33,235 nt of DNA from Armatimonadota bacterium (GCA_015486155.1 WFSF01000225.1:1-33235), one strand, 5' to 3'. Counted from the stretch's first letter, positions 9,821 through 20,437 are shown. Numbers and translations are program-made. The notes: generated by a model from the sequence alone, not told the origin.

Positions 9821-10504
9821 ATGTCCGAGCAGGAAATACAGACGTTGCCGTTGATTGGAGAACCCGCGCCCCAGTTTCAGGCGGAGACGACACAGGGAAC
9901 CATCAATTTCCCTGACGACTTCCAGGGAAAGTGGATAATATTCTTCTCCCATCCCGCGGACTTCACCCCGGTATGCACCACGGAGTTCATGACCTTCGCC
10001 AGCATGGCCGAGGACTTCAAGAAGCTCAACACCGAGCTGGTGGGGCTGTCCATCGACTCCACGTTCAGCCACATCGCCTGGCTGCGGACCATAACGGAGC
10101 GCATCGAGTTCAAGGGGATGAAGGGCGTCGAGGTCAAGTTCCCGGTGATCAGCGACCTCACCATGGAGGTCGCGCGCAAGTACGGGATGCTGCACCCGGC
10201 CGCCAGCAACACCCAGGCGGTGCGCGCGGTGTTCATCATCGATCCGGAGGGCATCGTGCAGGCGATGGTGTACTATCCGCTGAGCATCGGGCGCAACATG
10301 GAGGAGATAAAGCGGCTGCTGATCGCGCTTCAGCGCAACGCCAAGCACAGCGTGGCCACCCCCGCCAACTGGCAGCCGGGGGACGAGGTGATCATCCCGC
10401 CGCCGGGCTCCTGCGGAAGCGCCCGCGAGCGGGTGGCGCAGGCGGGAGAGGACTACCGGTGCCTCGACTGGTTCCTGTGCCTCAAGAAAGACCCCGGGGC
10501 CTAG
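9821..10504 (+). CDS. Peroxiredoxin (Prx6-like subfamily)
   Basis: FFSHPADFTPVCTTEFMTFASM peroxidatic Cys motif; C-terminal NWQPGDEVIIPPPGSCGSA...DYRCLDWFLCLKK; good RBS upstream. Confidence 0.95.
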   Translation: MSEQEIQTLPLIGEPAPQFQAETTQGTINFPDDFQGKWIIFFSHPADFTPVCTTEFMTFASMAEDFKKLNTELVGLSIDSTFSHIAWLRTITERIEFKGMKGVEVKFPVISDLTMEVARKYGMLHPAASNTQAVRAVFIIDPEGIVQAMVYYPLSIGRNMEEIKRLLIALQRNAKHSVATPANWQPGDEVIIPPPGSCGSARERVAQAGEDYRCLDWFLCLKKDPGA

Positions 10505-10561
10505 CGCAAGCGCGCGTGCGGTCCGACCGACCATTACAACCGGTGAGAAATGAGGAGCGCC

Positions 10562-11041
10562 ATGCTGAACGAGAGAATGGAAGAAGGGTTGAACAAGCAG
10601 ATCGTGGCCGAGCTGTACTCGGCCTATCTCTACCTGGCGATGTCCGCCTATTGCCATGCGAGCAAAATGCCGGGCATGGGCCACTGGATGAAGAAGCAGG
10701 CCCTGGAGGAAGAAAGCCACGCCCTGAAGATTTTCGATTACGTGGCGGCAAACGGCCGCGCTCGGCTGAGCGCAATCGAGGCGCCGCCGGCGGAGTGGGA
10801 TTCGCCGCTGGCGGTGGCCAAGGGGGTGCTGGCGCATGAGAAGAAGGTGACCGCCATGATCGAGGCCCTGGTGGAGACCGCCAAGGAGGAGAAGGACGCG
10901 GCCACGGAGGAATTCCTCGCCTGGTTCATCGAGGAGCAGGAGGAGGAAGAGGAGAGCGCCGCAAAATTGGTGCAGATGTTGAGCGGCGCCCAGGACGCGC
11001 AGGCGCTCGCACGGGTGGACGCCGAGCTGGGAAAGAGATGA
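10562..11041 (+). CDS. Non-haem ferritin
   Basis: MLNERMEEGLNKQIVAELYSAYLYLAMSAYCHASKMPGMGHWMKKQALEEESHALKIFDYVAANG...EEKDAATEEFLAWFIEEQEEEEESA; bacterial ferritin ligand spacing. Confidence 0.94.
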   Translation: MLNERMEEGLNKQIVAELYSAYLYLAMSAYCHASKMPGMGHWMKKQALEEESHALKIFDYVAANGRARLSAIEAPPAEWDSPLAVAKGVLAHEKKVTAMIEALVETAKEEKDAATEEFLAWFIEEQEEEEESAAKLVQMLSGAQDAQALARVDAELGKR

Positions 11042-11577: not shown

Positions 11578-12795
11578 ATGAGCGATAGTTTTTCTGCGGT
11601 AAAGTTGACCGACCGCGTCTACTGGGTAGGCGCGATCGACTGGGAGCTGCGCGACTTTCACGGCTATGCGGTGGAGAGAGGCTCCACCTACAACGCCTAT
11701 CTGGTGCTCGCGGACAAGGTGACGCTGATCGACACCGTGAAGGCCCCGTTCTACGAGCAGATGATGGCGCGCGTCGCCTCGGTCGTGGACCCGGGGAAGA
11801 TCTCGTATGTGGTCGCCAACCACGCGGAGATGGACCACACCGGATCCCTGCCGCGGGTGATCGAACGGGTCAAGCCCGAAAAGGTGGTCGCATCCGCGCC
11901 GGGGGTGAAGGCCATCGGCCAGCACTTCCGCCTGAGCCAAGAGCTCACCGCGGTGAAGAACGGCGAGACCTTGAGCCTGGGCAACACCTCCCTGACCTTC
12001 CTCGGCACCCCCATGGTGCACTGGCCGGACAGCATGTTCAGCTACCTAGCCGACGAGCGGCTGCTGTTCTCGAACGACGCCTTCGGGATGCACCTGGCCT
12101 CCACGGAGCGATTCGCGGACGAACTGCCGGAGTGGCTGCTGGATTACGAGGGGAGCCGGTATTACGCGAACATCGTCCTCCCCTTCTCCACTCTCGTCCT
12201 GAAACTTCTGGACAAGGTCAAGCAACTCGGCCTCGCGATCGACATCATCGCGCCGAGCCACGGGCCGGTGTGGAGGAAGAACCCGAGCTGGATCGTGAAC
12301 CGCTATGCCGACTGGGCGGGCGGGCCCCTGGAGAAGAAGGCGCTGATCGTCTACGACAGCATGTGGCATTCCACCGAACTGATGGCGGCGGCGATCGCGG
12401 ACGGCGTGCAGGCCGGCGGCGCGCGCGCGAAGCTCCTCTCGCTCAAGGGCTCCCACCGGAGCGATGTCGCCCACGAGGCCCTGAAGGCGGGAGTGTTGCT
12501 GGTGGGCTCGCCGACGTTGAACAACGGGATGCTTCCCTCTGTGGCGGATGCGCTCACCTACCTGAAGGGATTGAAACCCCGCGTGCCGACCGGCGCCGCC
12601 TTCGGCTCCTATGGTTGGAGCGGGGAAGCGTGCGCCCACATCGAGGACGTACTCTCGGAAATGGGGCTCTCTCTCCTCCGAGAGGCGCTCAGGGTGAAAT
12701 ATGTCCCCAACGAGGAAGCGCTCGCGCAGTGCGTCGAGCTGGGCCGACTCACCGCGGCGAGATTGCTCAGCCCGACCGCTGGAGCGGGAGCGTAA
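11578..12795 (+). CDS. Flavodiiron protein (FprA/NorV-type; O2 or NO reductase)
   Basis: Beta-lactamase-like diiron core NHAEMDHTG, MVHWPDSMF, FSNDAFGMHLAS, APSHGPVWR; C-terminal flavodoxin domain ALIVYDSMWHSTELMAAAIADGV...GSPTLNNGMLPSV. Confidence 0.95.
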   Translation: MSDSFSAVKLTDRVYWVGAIDWELRDFHGYAVERGSTYNAYLVLADKVTLIDTVKAPFYEQMMARVASVVDPGKISYVVANHAEMDHTGSLPRVIERVKPEKVVASAPGVKAIGQHFRLSQELTAVKNGETLSLGNTSLTFLGTPMVHWPDSMFSYLADERLLFSNDAFGMHLASTERFADELPEWLLDYEGSRYYANIVLPFSTLVLKLLDKVKQLGLAIDIIAPSHGPVWRKNPSWIVNRYADWAGGPLEKKALIVYDSMWHSTELMAAAIADGVQAGGARAKLLSLKGSHRSDVAHEALKAGVLLVGSPTLNNGMLPSVADALTYLKGLKPRVPTGAAFGSYGWSGEACAHIEDVLSEMGLSLLREALRVKYVPNEEALAQCVELGRLTAARLLSPTAGAGA

Positions 12796-13829
12796 TGGCG
12801 CCTTCCGCCCTCTCCGCGGCCGATGTGCGCAGCGTGCTGGCGCGGGCGATGGAGAGCACGGCGGTGCTGGCCCCGGTGAGGCGGGGACGCTCTTCATTCG
12901 CCTTCCAGTGGATCGCGGACCCGGCGGAGGCGGTCTTCAGTTATCCCCGCACCATCCTCCCCCCCAAGCAGGCGCTGCTGCCGCCCCGGGAGGACCTGTT
13001 CGTCTTTCAGCGCGCCCCGGAGCCGGCGGTGCGGCCGCCCGCGGCGCCGGACCCCATCACTCTGTTCGGCGTGCACCCGTGTGATCTGGCGGCGATCGGC
13101 CAGCTCGACTGGGCGATGCAAGAGAGGCACGGGATCTGCGACCCCAATTACGCCGCGCGCCGCGCCCACACCACCATCATCGGCCTGGAGTGCCTGCCGG
13201 ACGAGTACTGCTTCTGCCCCTCCGTGGGCACGGCCCACACCCGCGCGGGGGCCGATCTGTTTCTGACCCCGGTCGGGGAGGAATTCGTGGCCGAGGCGCT
13301 CACCGAGAAGGGAGAGGCCCTGCTCGCCTCCGCGGGAGAGAAGCGCGCGCCCAGCGCGGAGGCGCGGGACACCTGGGAGCACTGGGCGGAAGACAAGGAA
13401 AGCCGGGTTTCCCGACGCCTGAAGGCGCAGCCGAAAGAACTTCCCGACTTGCTGGAGGCGGAATACGAGAGCGAGGTGTGGGAGGCGACCGCGGCGCGCT
13501 GCTACAGCTGCGGAACCTGCACCAGCGTCTGCCCCACCTGTTTCTGCTTCGATGTCGAGGACGTGGTGGAGGTCGGGCTCGCCTCGGGGGCCCGCAGGCG
13601 GCAGTATGATTCCTGTCAGTTTTTGGAGTTCGCGTCGGTGGCGGGAGGACACAACTTCCGCGGCGAGCGTCCGGACCGGGTGCGCCACAGGTGGTTTCGC
13701 AAGTTCGTCCACCTGAATCGGGAGTACGGGGACGCGTTTTGCGTTGGGTGCGGCCGGTGCACGAAGTTCTGCACCGCGGACATCGGCCTCGTGGAGGTGC
13801 TCAATTCCATCGTGGAGGCGTCGGAATGA
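12795..13829 (+). CDS. [NiFe] hydrogenase / sulfhydrogenase beta-type iron-sulfur subunit (HydB-like)
   Basis: Two 4Fe-4S motifs CYSCGTCTSVCPTCFCF and CVGCGRCTKFCTADI; FGVHPCDLAAI...GLECLPDEYCFC; starts by TAATG overlap with the flavodiiron protein stop; precedes gamma, delta, alpha genes. Confidence 0.88.
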   Translation: MAPSALSAADVRSVLARAMESTAVLAPVRRGRSSFAFQWIADPAEAVFSYPRTILPPKQALLPPREDLFVFQRAPEPAVRPPAAPDPITLFGVHPCDLAAIGQLDWAMQERHGICDPNYAARRAHTTIIGLECLPDEYCFCPSVGTAHTRAGADLFLTPVGEEFVAEALTEKGEALLASAGEKRAPSAEARDTWEHWAEDKESRVSRRLKAQPKELPDLLEAEYESEVWEATAARCYSCGTCTSVCPTCFCFDVEDVVEVGLASGARRRQYDSCQFLEFASVAGGHNFRGERPDRVRHRWFRKFVHLNREYGDAFCVGCGRCTKFCTADIGLVEVLNSIVEASE

Positions 13830-14683
13830 CGCAGACCCGCAGCAGGCGCGCGGGCCCCGATCCGTCGGGACTCTACCTCCCCCGGACGGCCCGCGTGGTG
13901 CGCGCCGAGAACCTGACCCGGCAGGACCGCCTGATCGAGATCGCGCTTCCAGAGGGGCAGGCGCTGGGACACCGCCCCGGCCAATTCGTACAGGTGAGCC
14001 TCCTCGGGTATGGGGAGGCCCCCATATCCGTGTCCTCCGGGCCGCAGCAGACGGGGAGCTTCGAGCTCTGCGTCCGGCGGTTGGGAAATGTGACCACCGC
14101 GCTGCACGCCCTGCAACCCGGAGACCCGGTGGGGATCCGCGGGCCCTTCGGCAACGGTTTCCCCATGGACCACCTGGTGGGCCGGGACTGCCTGGTGGTG
14201 GCGGGCGGCATAGGGCTGGCCCCGCTCAGGTCCGTCATCCACTCCATCCTCGCGCGCAGGGAACGCTACGGTCGGCTCATCGTGCTGCACGGGGCGCGCC
14301 GGGAGGAGGACATCTTGTTCCGGGACGAGATCGCGGAATGGCAGCAGGACCCGCGCAACGAGGTGCTGCTCACGGTGGATGAGCCCACTCCCGGCTGGAA
14401 GGGCCGCGTGGGGGTCATCACCACGCTATTCCCCGAGATCGAAGTGGACCCCGCGAACCTGGTGGTGGTGGCGATGGTGGGGCCTCCGGTGATGTACCGG
14501 TTCGTGATCCTCGAACTGCGCGGACTGGGCATCAAGAACGACCAGATGTTCATGTCCCTGGAGAGGCGCATGAAGTGTGGAGTCGGCAAGTGCGGGCACT
14601 GCCAGATTGACGGCCGGTGCGTGTGTGTGGACGGCCCGGTCTTCTCCGGGACCGAAATCATGGCGATGCACGAGGCGATATAG
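13826..14683 (+). CDS. Sulfhydrogenase gamma-type FAD/NAD(P)-binding subunit (HydG-like)
   Basis: GHRPGQFVQVSLLGYGEAPISVSS...FELCVRRLGNVTTALHAL...VAGGIGLAPLRSVI...MSLERRMKCGVGKCGHCQIDGRCVCVDGPVFSG; ATGA overlap with beta. Confidence 0.92.
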   Translation: MTQTRSRRAGPDPSGLYLPRTARVVRAENLTRQDRLIEIALPEGQALGHRPGQFVQVSLLGYGEAPISVSSGPQQTGSFELCVRRLGNVTTALHALQPGDPVGIRGPFGNGFPMDHLVGRDCLVVAGGIGLAPLRSVIHSILARRERYGRLIVLHGARREEDILFRDEIAEWQQDPRNEVLLTVDEPTPGWKGRVGVITTLFPEIEVDPANLVVVAMVGPPVMYRFVILELRGLGIKNDQMFMSLERRMKCGVGKCGHCQIDGRCVCVDGPVFSGTEIMAMHEAI

Positions 14684-14685
14684 GG

Positions 14686-15498
14686 ATGGCGGAGAAACCC
14701 CGCATAGCCTTCTTCGACTTCGCGTGCTGCGAGGGGTGTCAGCTCACCGTGCTCGGCCTGGGCGAGCCGCTGCTGAAACTGCTCGAGCGCGTGGAGGTGG
14801 TCACCTGGCGGGAGGCGATGTCGGAGCGGAGCGACGACTTCGACATCGCGTTCGTGGAGGGGAGCATCACCCGGGATTCCGATATCCCCCGGCTGCGACG
14901 GATTCGGGAGCAGGCCAAAGTGCTGGTGGCGCTGGGGACCTGCGCCACGCTGGGCGGGCCGCACGTCTCCGCCAACAACTGCGACCGCGGCGAGTTGCTG
15001 AGGCTGGTGTACGGCGGGGAGGGGGCGCAGTTCGAGGCCGGCGAGGTGAGGCCGCTCTCGGCCGTGGTGCAGGTAGACGCGTTCATCCACGGCTGCCCCA
15101 TCAACGGAGACGAATTCCTAACCGTCGCCAACCATCTGCTGCTCGGCAAGGCCTATCATCCCCCCAGCCGGCCGGTCTGCCACGAATGCAAACTCAACCA
15201 ATACGAATGCGTCCTCGATCGGGGGCAGATCTGCCTGGGGCCGGTGACCCGCGGCGGGTGTGACGCCATCTGCACCAGCCGGGGTAGCCAGTGCTTCGGC
15301 TGCCGCGGGCTGGTGGACGATCCCAACTTGAACGCGGCGAGGGAGGTGCTCGCGGAGCACGGTTACACCGTCTCCGACATCATCGGCATGTTCGACATCT
15401 ATTCGTTACGCTCGCCGGCGGCGGCCGAAGCGCGGGAGACGGCGCGGCAGGACCGGGGCGCAATCGAGAAGGGCGCGGAGCCATGGAGATCAAGGTAG
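14686..15498 (+). CDS. [NiFe] hydrogenase small (delta) subunit
   Basis: FFDFACCEGCQLTVLGLGEPLL...VALGTCATLGGPHVSAN...AFIHGCPINGDEFL...PVCHECKLNQYECVLDRGQICLGPVTRGGCDAICTSRGSQCFGCRG. Confidence 0.93.
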   Translation: MAEKPRIAFFDFACCEGCQLTVLGLGEPLLKLLERVEVVTWREAMSERSDDFDIAFVEGSITRDSDIPRLRRIREQAKVLVALGTCATLGGPHVSANNCDRGELLRLVYGGEGAQFEAGEVRPLSAVVQVDAFIHGCPINGDEFLTVANHLLLGKAYHPPSRPVCHECKLNQYECVLDRGQICLGPVTRGGCDAICTSRGSQCFGCRGLVDDPNLNAAREVLAEHGYTVSDIIGMFDIYSLRSPAAAEARETARQDRGAIEKGAEPWRSR

Positions 15499-16742
15499 AA
15501 CATATCACGCGGGTCGAGGGGCACGGCAACATCGTCGCTTCGCTTCAGGGCGGACGCGTGGAGCAGGCTTTTTTTCAGGTGGTGGAGGCGATCCGCTTTT
15601 TCGAGGGTTTTCTTCGGGGCAAGAGCTGGCGAGAGGTCAGCCACCTGGCGAGCCGCATCTGCGGCATCTGCGCCATCAGCCACAGCACCGCCTCCCTGCA
15701 GGCGACAGAGCAGGCGCTCGGCCTCGCTCTATCCCCGCAGGCGCAGTTGCTGCGACGGCTGATCATGAACGCGGAGATCTTGTCCAGCCACGCGCTGCAC
15801 GTCTATTTCCTCGCCGCGCCCGATTTCCTGGGGCTGAAGAGCGTGATGCCGTTGATAGAGACCGGCCCGGAGGTGGTCGCGCGCGCGTTTCGCCTGAAGA
15901 AGACCGGCTACGAGCTGGCGGAGGTGGTGGTGGGGAGACACACCCACCCGGTGGCGGCCGTCCCCGGGGGGTTCACGATGGCGCCCGAAGAGAGCGCGTT
16001 GCGCGCGGTCAGGGACAAACTGACGGCGCTGCGCCCCGACCTGGAGGCCACCGTGGAGTTGTGGAAGACGCTGGAGGTTCCGGAGTTCTCCCGCCCCACC
16101 GAATATGTGTGCCTGCGACGGCCGGAGTACTACGCGTTCGAGGGCGGCGAGATCGTCTCCAGCGAGGGAGACAGCGTGCCCGTAGCGCGCTACGGGGAGG
16201 CGATCGAGGAACACGTAGTCTCTCACTCCACCGCCAAGCACGCGCGCTGGCACCGGGAGAGTTACCTGGTGGGGGCGCTGGCGCGGGTGAACAACAACTG
16301 GCGGCAGCTTCACCCCGCGGCCCGGCGTGCGATGGAGGCGATCGGCCTCCAGCCGCCCTGTCACAACACGTTCATGAACACCGCGGCCCAGGTGGTGGAA
16401 ATTGTGCACTGCGTGGAGGACAGCATCGCGCTGATCGACGAAATCCTCTCGCTTCCGCTCCAGGAGGAGTGGGAGCCGGAGGTCACCGCCCGGGCGGGAG
16501 AGGGTGTGGGCGCGGCGGAGGCGCCCCGCGGGCTGTTGATACACGACTATACATATGATGAGCAGGGGCGATGCGTGAGGGCGAACTGCGTGATCCCCAC
16601 CAATCAGAATCTCGCCAACCTGGACGCCGACATGCGCGCGCTGTTGCCGCAGTTGTCCGCGAGGACACAGGAAGAGGTCCAGCTGCGACTCGAAATGCTG
16701 GTGCGCTCCTATGACCCCTGCATCTCCTGCTCGGTGCACTGA
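15483..16742 (+). CDS. [NiFe] hydrogenase large (alpha) subunit, group 3b-like
   Basis: MEIKVEHITRVEGHGNIVASL...ASRICGICAISHSTASLQATEQALG (N-terminal CxxC) and LVRSYDPCISCSVH* (C-terminal DPCxxC). Confidence 0.94.
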   Translation: MEIKVEHITRVEGHGNIVASLQGGRVEQAFFQVVEAIRFFEGFLRGKSWREVSHLASRICGICAISHSTASLQATEQALGLALSPQAQLLRRLIMNAEILSSHALHVYFLAAPDFLGLKSVMPLIETGPEVVARAFRLKKTGYELAEVVVGRHTHPVAAVPGGFTMAPEESALRAVRDKLTALRPDLEATVELWKTLEVPEFSRPTEYVCLRRPEYYAFEGGEIVSSEGDSVPVARYGEAIEEHVVSHSTAKHARWHRESYLVGALARVNNNWRQLHPAARRAMEAIGLQPPCHNTFMNTAAQVVEIVHCVEDSIALIDEILSLPLQEEWEPEVTARAGEGVGAAEAPRGLLIHDYTYDEQGRCVRANCVIPTNQNLANLDADMRALLPQLSARTQEEVQLRLEMLVRSYDPCISCSVH

Positions 16743-18173: not shown

Positions 18174-18596
18174 ATGTCCAGTCTGCTCCGAATTTCAGAG
18201 GCCGCCTCTCTCGCCATGCACACCATGGTGCTGCTGGCCGCCACAGAGAACCGGCGCTGGTCGATCAAGCAACTGGCAGAGAAGCTCGACGCCTCCGGCG
18301 CACATCTCTCCAAGGTGCTCCAAAGGCTCGCGCACGAGGGGTTGGTGGTCTCGGAGCGCGGCCCCAAGGGGGGATACTCCCTGGCGGCGTCCCCGGAAGA
18401 GGTCACCCTGCTGCGTATATACGAGGCGATAGAGGGACCGCTGACGTCATCGGAGTGCATCCTCGGCCTAGACAAGTGCCCCTTCCGCAAGTGCATTTTG
18501 GGCAGCCTGATCGCCCACCTCAACGGGAAAGTGAAGAGGCAGCTGGCGGGCAGCACTCTGGCTCAGCTGCGACGCCTCTACAGGAGCGCATCATGA
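18174..18596 (+). CDS. Rrf2 family transcriptional regulator with three-Cys cluster motif
   Basis: Winged-helix WSIKQLAEKLDASGAHLSKVLQRLAHEGLVVSERGPKGGYSLAASPEEVTLLRIYEAIEGPL followed by ECILGLDKCPFRKCILG; linked to hcp. Confidence 0.93.
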   Translation: MSSLLRISEAASLAMHTMVLLAATENRRWSIKQLAEKLDASGAHLSKVLQRLAHEGLVVSERGPKGGYSLAASPEEVTLLRIYEAIEGPLTSSECILGLDKCPFRKCILGSLIAHLNGKVKRQLAGSTLAQLRRLYRSAS

Positions 18597-18793: not shown

Positions 18794-20437
18794 GTGTTCT
18801 GCTATCAATGTGAACAAACTGCAAAAGGCATGGGTTGCACCGTGCGCGGCGTGTGCGGGAAAGATCCGCAGGTGGCCGCGCTCCAGGACCTGCTGGTTCA
18901 TGCGCTGAAGGGACTTTCGATGTACGCGCGGCGCGCCCGGCCCCTGGGACACCAGGACCCGGAAACCGATGTCTTCACCGCCGAGGCGCTCTTCGCCACG
19001 CTCACCAATGTGAACTTCGACGCCGAGGACATGCAGCGGTTTCTGCTGCGCGCCCACGAGTTGAAGGAGCGCGCCAAGGACGCCTACGAGAAGGCGTGCG
19101 CCGCGGCCGGCAAGGAGCCGGAGGCATTGGACGGGCCCGCGGCCTGGCGGCCCGCCGACACGCTGGAGGGGCTGGTGCAACAGGGTGAGGAGGTCACGAT
19201 CCTCAAGCGCAAGCAGGAGCTGGGCGACGACGTGACCGGATTGCAGGAGTTGCTGCTCTACGGCCTCAAGGGTCTGGCGGCCTATGTGGACCACGCGCAG
19301 ATCCTCGGGGTGCGGGACGACGAGGTCTTCGCATACCTTCATGAGGCGCTCGACTACCTGGCGGGGAACCCATCCGACATCGACGAGCTGGTCGCCAAGT
19401 GCCTGAAGTGCGGCGAGGTCAACCTCAAGGCGATGGAATTGCTCGACAAGGCCAACACCGGAGCCTATGGCGATCCCGAGCCCACTCAGGTGCGGATCGA
19501 GCCGGTGAAGGGGAAGGCGATCCTGATCTCCGGGCACGACCTGAAGGACCTGGAGGAATTGCTGAAGCAAACCGAGGGCAAGGGAATAAACATCTACACC
19601 CACGGCGAGATGCTGCCGGCGCACGGATACCCCGGCCTCAAGAAGTACCCGCACCTCGTGGGCAACTACGGGGGCGCGTGGCAGCTCCAGCGGCGCGAGT
19701 TCGACGCCTTCCCCGGGGCGATTCTCATGACCACCAACTGCATCCAGGAGCCCCGAGACAGTTACCGGGATCGCATCTTCACCACGGGCGTGGTGGGCTG
19801 GCCGGGTGTCCGGCACATCAGCGACCGCGACTTCACCCCCGTGATAGAGGCGGCGCTCGCCCAGCCCGGCTTCACCGAGGACGGCCCGGATCGCAAGATC
19901 ACCGTCGGTTTCGGGCATGCTGCCGTGCTCGGGGTGGCCGACAAGGTGGTGGAGTTGGTGAAGCAGGGCAAGATCCGCCACTTCTTCCTCATCGGCGGGT
20001 GCGATGGCGCCAAGCCGGGCCGCAGTTACTACACCGAGCTCGCGAAGGCGGTGCCCGACGACTGCGTGATCCTCACTCTCGCCTGCGGAAAGTACCGGTT
20101 CAACAAACTGGACTTCGGCGCGATCGACGGAATCCCGCGGCTGCTGGACATCGGCCAGTGCAATGACGCCTACTCCGCGATCCGCATCGCGCTGGCGCTC
20201 GCCGATGCGTTCGAGACCGATGTGAACAGCCTGCCGCTGTCCCTCGTGCTGTCCTGGTTCGAGCAGAAGGCCGTGGTGATCTTGCTCACCCTTCTGCACC
20301 TCGGCATCAAGAACATGCGCCTGGGACCGAGCCTGCCCGCCTTCGTCACCCCGCCGGTGCTCCAGAGCCTGGTGGACAATTTCGCCCTGACGCCGATCAC
20401 CACGCCGGAGGAGGATCTGAAGGCGATGCTGGGATAG
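18794..20437 (+). CDS. hcp: Hybrid cluster protein / hydroxylamine reductase
   Basis: MFCYQCEQTAKGMGCTVRGVCGKDPQVAALQD... (N-terminal Cys motif), GHDLKDLEELLKQTEGKGINIYTHGEMLPAHGYPGLKKYPHLVGNYGGAWQLQRREF, CDGAKPGRSYYTELAKAVPDDCVILTLACGKYRFN; GTG start. Confidence 0.97.
   Translation: MFCYQCEQTAKGMGCTVRGVCGKDPQVAALQDLLVHALKGLSMYARRARPLGHQDPETDVFTAEALFATLTNVNFDAEDMQRFLLRAHELKERAKDAYEKACAAAGKEPEALDGPAAWRPADTLEGLVQQGEEVTILKRKQELGDDVTGLQELLLYGLKGLAAYVDHAQILGVRDDEVFAYLHEALDYLAGNPSDIDELVAKCLKCGEVNLKAMELLDKANTGAYGDPEPTQVRIEPVKGKAILISGHDLKDLEELLKQTEGKGINIYTHGEMLPAHGYPGLKKYPHLVGNYGGAWQLQRREFDAFPGAILMTTNCIQEPRDSYRDRIFTTGVVGWPGVRHISDRDFTPVIEAALAQPGFTEDGPDRKITVGFGHAAVLGVADKVVELVKQGKIRHFFLIGGCDGAKPGRSYYTELAKAVPDDCVILTLACGKYRFNKLDFGAIDGIPRLLDIGQCNDAYSAIRIALALADAFETDVNSLPLSLVLSWFEQKAVVILLTLLHLGIKNMRLGPSLPAFVTPPVLQSLVDNFALTPITTPEEDLKAMLG

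Follow-up and report, generated by a model that had tools for sequence, protein, structure and literature searches.

A flavodiiron protein gene linked to group 3b [NiFe] hydrogenase genes in Armatimonadota: a candidate oxygen defense operon

Introduction

Flavodiiron proteins (FDPs) generally receive their electrons from rubredoxins or from NADH-dependent oxidoreductases (PMC6033852). In Thermococcus, the FDP, NROR, rubrerythrin, and the soluble hydrogenases shift expression together, and electrons are described as reaching rubredoxin from NAD(P)H via NROR (PMC4463584). Judging by locus tags, the FDP/NROR/rubrerythrin genes of Thermococcus onnurineus (TON_0863-0866) lie apart from those of soluble hydrogenase I (TON_0534-0537; PMC4463584). 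In this study, we analyzed a stretch of 33,235 nucleotides from an Armatimonadota bacterium (GCA_015486155.1, WFSF01000225.1:1-33235; hereafter, the window), in which an FDP gene runs directly into hydBGDA, the four genes of a group 3b [NiFe] hydrogenase. We found no description of this linkage in the literature; our search covered open-access publications, so an earlier description is possible. The parts are all known, and it is the arrangement and its rubredoxin history that appear to be new. The block bears on the survival of O2 by strict anaerobes whose hydrogenases and CO dehydrogenases are sensitive to it, and on the source of the electrons used for detoxification. As a conserved operon of hydrogenase, O2 reductase, rubredoxin, and rubrerythrin-like protein, it is a concrete candidate for an H2-powered O2 defense, and offers group 3b enzymes a candidate role beyond NADPH balancing. 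Testing the idea would take only a few soluble proteins. We propose, giving it about an even chance of being right, that the block is an operon for defense against O2 and peroxide (possibly also NO), whose 3b hydrogenase supplies or buffers reductant for a rubredoxin-dependent FDP.

Results and discussion

All five genes of the block are intact and lie on the plus strand, and Pfam and NCBIfam concur on each of them (Table 1). In the sequence TAATG (12793-12797), the FDP stop codon TAA (12793-12795) shares a base with the HydB ATG (12795-12797). HydB and HydG overlap through ATGA (13826-13829), HydG and HydD are 2 nt apart, and HydA begins at 15483, within the 3' end of HydD, with an overlap of 16 nt. 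These coordinates and open frames agree with the first-pass annotation of this DNA, which had described FDP as coupled to HydB through TAATG, HydB to HydG through ATGA, and the gamma, delta, and alpha genes as almost without spacing. The run of same-strand genes reaches further upstream of FDP, in the order peroxiredoxin, 45 nt, ferritin, 10 nt, Fer2, 31 nt, FDP. In another genome of the same genus (G001), the FDP stop and the HydB start overlap too, as GTGA. A promoter and terminator scan returned counts at the level of shuffled sequence.

Table 1. Genes of the FDP-hydrogenase block, followed by neighboring genes of the window.
Feature	Position	Strand	Basis
FDP (class A flavodiiron protein)	11578-12795	+	PF19583 + PF00258 (Pfam)
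HydB, hydrogenase beta subunit, two [4Fe-4S] motifs	12795-13829	+	ShyB/HydB 226/219 bits, AsrA-like (NCBIfam)
HydG, hydrogenase gamma subunit (FAD/NAD(P)-binding, [2Fe-2S] PyrK-like)	13826-14683	+	PF00970, PF00175, PF10418; NF006220 260.6 bits
HydD, [NiFe] hydrogenase small subunit	14686-15498	+	PF01058 2.3e-23; HydD/ShyD 169/167 bits
HydA, [NiFe] hydrogenase large subunit, group 3b	15483-16742	+	PF00374
Peroxiredoxin (AhpC/TSA, C-terminus of the 1-Cys type); opens the same-strand run	9821-10504	+	AhpC-TSA 2e-33; NF009668 324.5 bits vs cut-off 211
Non-heme ferritin	10550-11041	+	PF00210 6.5e-38
Fer2, rubrerythrin-like ferritin-fold diiron protein, 164 aa	11052-11546	+	PF02915 2.6e-8; nearest structure TM1526, 1vjx
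EncFtn-like/rubrerythrin-like protein, 97 aa	17691-17984	-	PF22277 7.2e-8
Rrf2-family regulator adjoining Hcp	18174-18596	+	PF02082 4.7e-28; TIGR00738
Hcp, hybrid cluster protein/hydroxylamine reductase	18794-20437	+	NF003658 829.5 bits vs cut-off 367

The FDP has 405 aa and consists of a metallo-beta-lactamase-like diiron domain and a flavodoxin domain, with no further domain recognized by Pfam, which is the class A architecture. Its diiron ligand set (HxExDH, H, D, H) is complete and invariant among 21 aligned homologues. The same two domains and all diiron ligands are found in Moorella FprA (1ycf), the closest solved relative with 396.8 bits, and in Desulfovibrio gigas ROO (361.7 bits). The protein of the window is thus a class A flavodiiron protein, predicted to act as an O2 or NO reductase with rubredoxin. 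Unlike these two class A proteins, it has no adjoining rubredoxin, and the hydrogenase comes next instead. NO is possibly a substrate, since the nearest solved structure carries the annotation nitric oxide reductase and Hcp and Rrf2 genes lie nearby.

The hydrogenase gene set is complete, with large, small, FAD/NAD(P), and Fe-S subunits (HydA, HydD, HydG, and HydB, respectively). In HydA, the [NiFe] motifs L1 (RICGICAISH) and L2 (DPCISCSVH) fit the patterns RxCGxCxxxH and DPCxxCxxH. We assigned the group by comparison with solved-structure references (3b against 3a, 3c, and 3d). The best match was the alpha subunit of sulfhydrogenase 1 (9e1j, 244 bits; 5yxy, 242.7 bits), as compared with 177 bits for the methyl-viologen-reducing MvhA, 141 for the NAD-reducing, and 91 for the F420-reducing enzyme. 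This comparison upholds the group 3b identity claimed at first pass, and we regard the membership of HydA as well supported by its sequence. The soluble hydrogenase I of Pyrococcus and Thermococcus, also a 3b enzyme, shares with the window its four subunits, their order, and the L1 and L2 motifs, in addition to being the best solved match of HydA. However, all four subunits fall below the NCBIfam equivalog cut-offs for the Pyrococcus-type sulfhydrogenase, HydA by far (260.8 vs 880), and the window enzyme differs further in lacking a C-terminal extension and in its linkage to FDP. The cluster cysteines of HydB are invariant in 27 homologues. HydB and HydG are also homologous (142.7 and 220.4 bits) to AsrA and AsrB of anaerobic sulfite reductase, a module carrying electrons from NADH to a terminal enzyme; unlike in that system, there is no AsrC in the block, and the genes of the hydrogenase small and large subunits come after HydB and HydG. 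HydA ends (16713-16742) on the last ligand histidine of DPCISCSVH, followed by the stop codon. The same extension-less end is found in G002, G004, G006, G007, G251, G036, G267, G272, and G274, while other relatives have short extensions; such enzymes may be matured without the usual endopeptidase step.

We then compared the genome of the window (G000) with G001, with G002, G006, and G007 from other genera of the same family (f1), and with G251 from another family of the phylum. The block Fer2-FDP-HydBGDA is present in G000, G002, and G007. In G006 it extends over two contigs whose ends fit within HydB, and in G001 the order FDP-HydB-HydG-HydD occupies a contig that ends on both sides. Between genera, the block proteins share approximately 60-70% identity and the block has different genes on its flanks, indicating that it is conserved and not merely yet to be rearranged. 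A full rubrerythrin with a rubredoxin-like domain lies upstream in G002, G006, and G007, the domain being confirmed for G002. G251 carries, all on one strand, the genes Rbr-Fer2-Hcp-CydA-CydB-FDP-HydBGDA (L063 5846-17011), in which the position of CydAB before FDP-HydBGDA ties the hydrogenase to O2 reductases. A copper ATPase between FDP and Hcp, as in G059, was considered for G251 and rejected, as the genes there code for cytochrome bd. Hence, an adjacency that the first-pass annotation had seen in a single genome recurs in other f1 genera and in one further family. Among 292 genomes of the phylum, HydA (E up to 1e-80) was detected in 57, FDP (E up to 1e-60) in 65, and both, counted from the two lists, in 28. 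FDP and HydA are adjacent only in G000, G002, G007, and G251, plus G006 across its contig break; these are minimum numbers, because draft contigs can hide adjacency. A scan of genome contigs with HydA returned four distant loci, none of which adjoins an FDP gene.

In the HydA tree, f1 and G251 sequences group together in a single supported clade (100/99), to which the FDP-linked arrangement is restricted. The FDP tree does not resolve the surroundings of the window FDP, and the approximately unbiased (AU) test gave p values of 0.138 for the hydrogenase-linked FDPs of f1 as one clade and 0.137 with G251 included, so that a single clade is not rejected; co-inheritance of FDP and hydrogenase is thus neither shown nor rejected. 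Fer2 directly precedes HydBGDA without FDP in eight or nine further loci, in G036, G286 (two loci), G259, G274, G268, G269, G272, and probably G013, all of which fall in the same larger HydA clade (19 rows). These loci point to the rubrerythrin-like diiron protein as the more widespread neighbor of the hydrogenase and to FDP as an addition in f1 and G251. Loci of this FDP-less kind include L055, L065, L066, L067, L069, L071, L072, and L074.

Limitation to one HydA clade would also suit a passive insertion of the hydrogenase behind FDP, into a constitutive stress cluster, the enzyme mainly making NADPH from H2 for the Wood-Ljungdahl pathway. G000 does encode genes of this pathway (CO dehydrogenase, formate-tetrahydrofolate ligase, and acetyl-CoA synthase), along with a hydrogenase that we read from its sequence as Mvh-type. 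Nevertheless, we find passive insertion very improbable. At loci that lack FDP, this HydA lineage is still linked to Fer2, the G251 block adjoins cytochrome bd genes, and one would expect a fortuitous linkage to have broken up at 60% identity.

The first-pass annotation had stated that no rubredoxin gene lies in the window, and our motif search of the window was indeed empty. It had taken this absence to mean that HydB or HydG could reduce the FDP flavin without rubredoxin. A complex of this kind would act as an oxidoreductase between H2 or NAD(P)H and O2. That premise does not extend to the genome. G000 carries one stand-alone rubredoxin on another contig (C16), and in G002 the sole PF00301 rubredoxin found in the genome sits exactly between FDP and HydB. 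Moreover, FDP and HydB of G007 are separated by 232 nt, a stretch that aligns to the G002 rubredoxin gene with a score of 52 (500 dinucleotide shuffles: mean 24.8, sd 4.3, maximum 48) and holds in-frame remnants such as GDPDNGV and FCPQC, so that it is probably a rubredoxin relic. The corresponding gaps of G006 and G251 gave no such signal. FDP-rubredoxin neighbors are in fact common in the phylum: in eight genomes (G002, G009, G010, G012, G013, G036, G270, and G274) the gene after FDP, in the same orientation, is rubredoxin, which is a convergent neighbor of FDP in G059 and G283.

Stand-alone rubredoxins are kept away from the operon in G001, G006, and G007 as well as in G000. The stand-alone gene of G001, G005, G006, and G007 occupies a common locus, adjoining a zinc alcohol dehydrogenase-like gene, and the other flanking gene of the G001 copy is shared with the C16 locus of G000. 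In G000 (L094 2420-2860), the C16 rubredoxin is itself followed by what may be left of the C-terminal part of this zinc alcohol dehydrogenase-like gene. The simplest history would be an ancestral order FDP-rubredoxin-HydBGDA, from which the operon rubredoxin was lost in two genera (g6 and g1) as the other locus took over. If rubredoxin is supplied from a second locus, its absence from the window is no argument for direct transfer from HydB or HydG to FDP. Direct transfer does find some encouragement in the FDP/HydB overlap of the window and G001, which leaves no rubredoxin gene in between, in the linkage conserved across several f1 genera and G251, and in the apparent loss of the operon rubredoxin from g6 and g1. 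G251 is the exception to the pattern above: at 95% completeness it has no PF00301 rubredoxin that we could find genome-wide, and it still keeps FDP beside HydBGDA. Yet rubredoxin is at hand in the other genomes, a takeover by the second locus would account just as well for its loss from the operon, and FDPs are in general fed by the donors already described (PMC6033852). We therefore consider direct transfer improbable. A rubredoxin domain also occurs near the N-terminus of an ABC-transporter permease (BPD_transp_1) of G007 (L097 4360-5418), and frames of G006 and G003 similar to this permease hold a rubredoxin match.

As for the enzyme that reduces rubredoxin, we used PF18267, the rubredoxin-reductase C-terminal domain found in NROR, as a marker. 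Its only match in G000, a pyridine-nucleotide oxidoreductase, has a CooF-like protein and CO dehydrogenase as neighbors, and there was none in G001, G006, or G007. By this search, which may miss one, none of the four genomes has a dedicated NROR-like protein. This leaves HydBG, an AsrAB/PyrK-like NAD(P)H module, as a candidate rubredoxin reductase. The locus resembles the NAD(P)H-NROR-rubredoxin-FDP chain of anaerobes in the rubredoxin neighbors of FDP (in eight genomes of the phylum, including one where it lies within the FDP-hydrogenase block) and in its rubrerythrin neighbors. It differs in that no clear NROR was found and a 3b hydrogenase occupies the position of the reductase. A bolder version, tentative and in our view rather unlikely, is that HydBGDA itself would be the rubredoxin (or FDP) reductase, replacing NROR in a dedicated chain from H2 to rubredoxin to FDP that bypasses the NAD(P)H pool. 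If this were true, the Fer2-linked relatives would be H2-driven peroxidase systems.

For the defense operon that we favor, we infer the flow and direction of electrons, their carrier, and their substrate as follows. H2 would be oxidized at HydA/HydD, and its electrons would pass via HydB/HydG to NAD(P)H and, with or without a small reductase in between, to rubredoxin, which in the genus of the window would be supplied in trans from another locus. Rubredoxin would then reduce FDP, and FDP would reduce O2 to water. Peroxide would be handled by Fer2 together with rubrerythrin or peroxiredoxin, and ferritin would store the released iron. The genes around the block are those of O2, peroxide, and NO defense, in line with the O2/NO scavenging suggested at first pass, and H2- or NAD(P)H-driven scavenging by FDP-HydBGDA is plausible. 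Several observations weigh against this reading. The block is known from its genes and from sequence comparison, and we found no documentation of rubredoxin reduction by HydBG in the literature searched. Linkage was not seen in 23 of the 28 genomes of the phylum that have both FDP and HydA, and in Omnitrophota both genes occur, by our count, in 37 of 286 genomes and were never seen within 30 kb of each other, although contig breaks may hide adjacency there too. G000, whose content was probed by family searches, is 87% complete and may hold a missed reductase or oxidase. Finally, in G059 an FDP adjoins rubredoxin, and the genome gave no match for a 3b hydrogenase or for PF18267, indicating that the phylum has some other rubredoxin reductase and that the argument for HydBG is suggestive only.

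The G059 arrangement, and the other FDP-rubredoxin pairs of the phylum without a linked hydrogenase, are what one would expect under the main rival to our proposal, namely co-regulated protection without electron exchange. FDP would then shield the O2-sensitive hydrogenase and other metalloenzymes, an NAD(P)H reductase unrelated to the block would reduce rubredoxin, and the hydrogenase would do no more than balance H2 and NADPH. The co-regulation seen in Thermococcus, with NAD(P)H and NROR as the described route (PMC4463584), fits this explanation. However, the overlapping frames and the gene order kept across genera suggest more than shared regulation, and the PF18267 search, within its limit, gave no dedicated NROR-like protein in the four genomes. 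We consider protection alone possible, though somewhat unlikely.

Neither cytochrome bd (PF01654, CydA) nor heme-copper oxidase (PF00115, COX1) was found in G000, G001, G002, G006, or G007. Together with the Wood-Ljungdahl genes, the gene content of the host looks like that of an acetogen-type anaerobe, in which FDP would be the main recognizable O2 reductase.

Among the neighboring genes, Fer2 is the conserved upstream neighbor of FDP and of HydB. It has no rubredoxin domain, and its diiron ligands (E-x6-Y / ExxH / E / ExxH) are kept in 15-16 of 16 homologues. Downstream of HydA, an aldolase-type gene is followed by the EncFtn-like gene on the opposite strand, and then by the Rrf2 regulator and Hcp. 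The Rrf2-family protein is possibly a stress regulator. The 97-aa EncFtn-like protein is also found near the FDP block in G002, G006, and G007 (L046, L047, and L048), where it is 75-78% identical.

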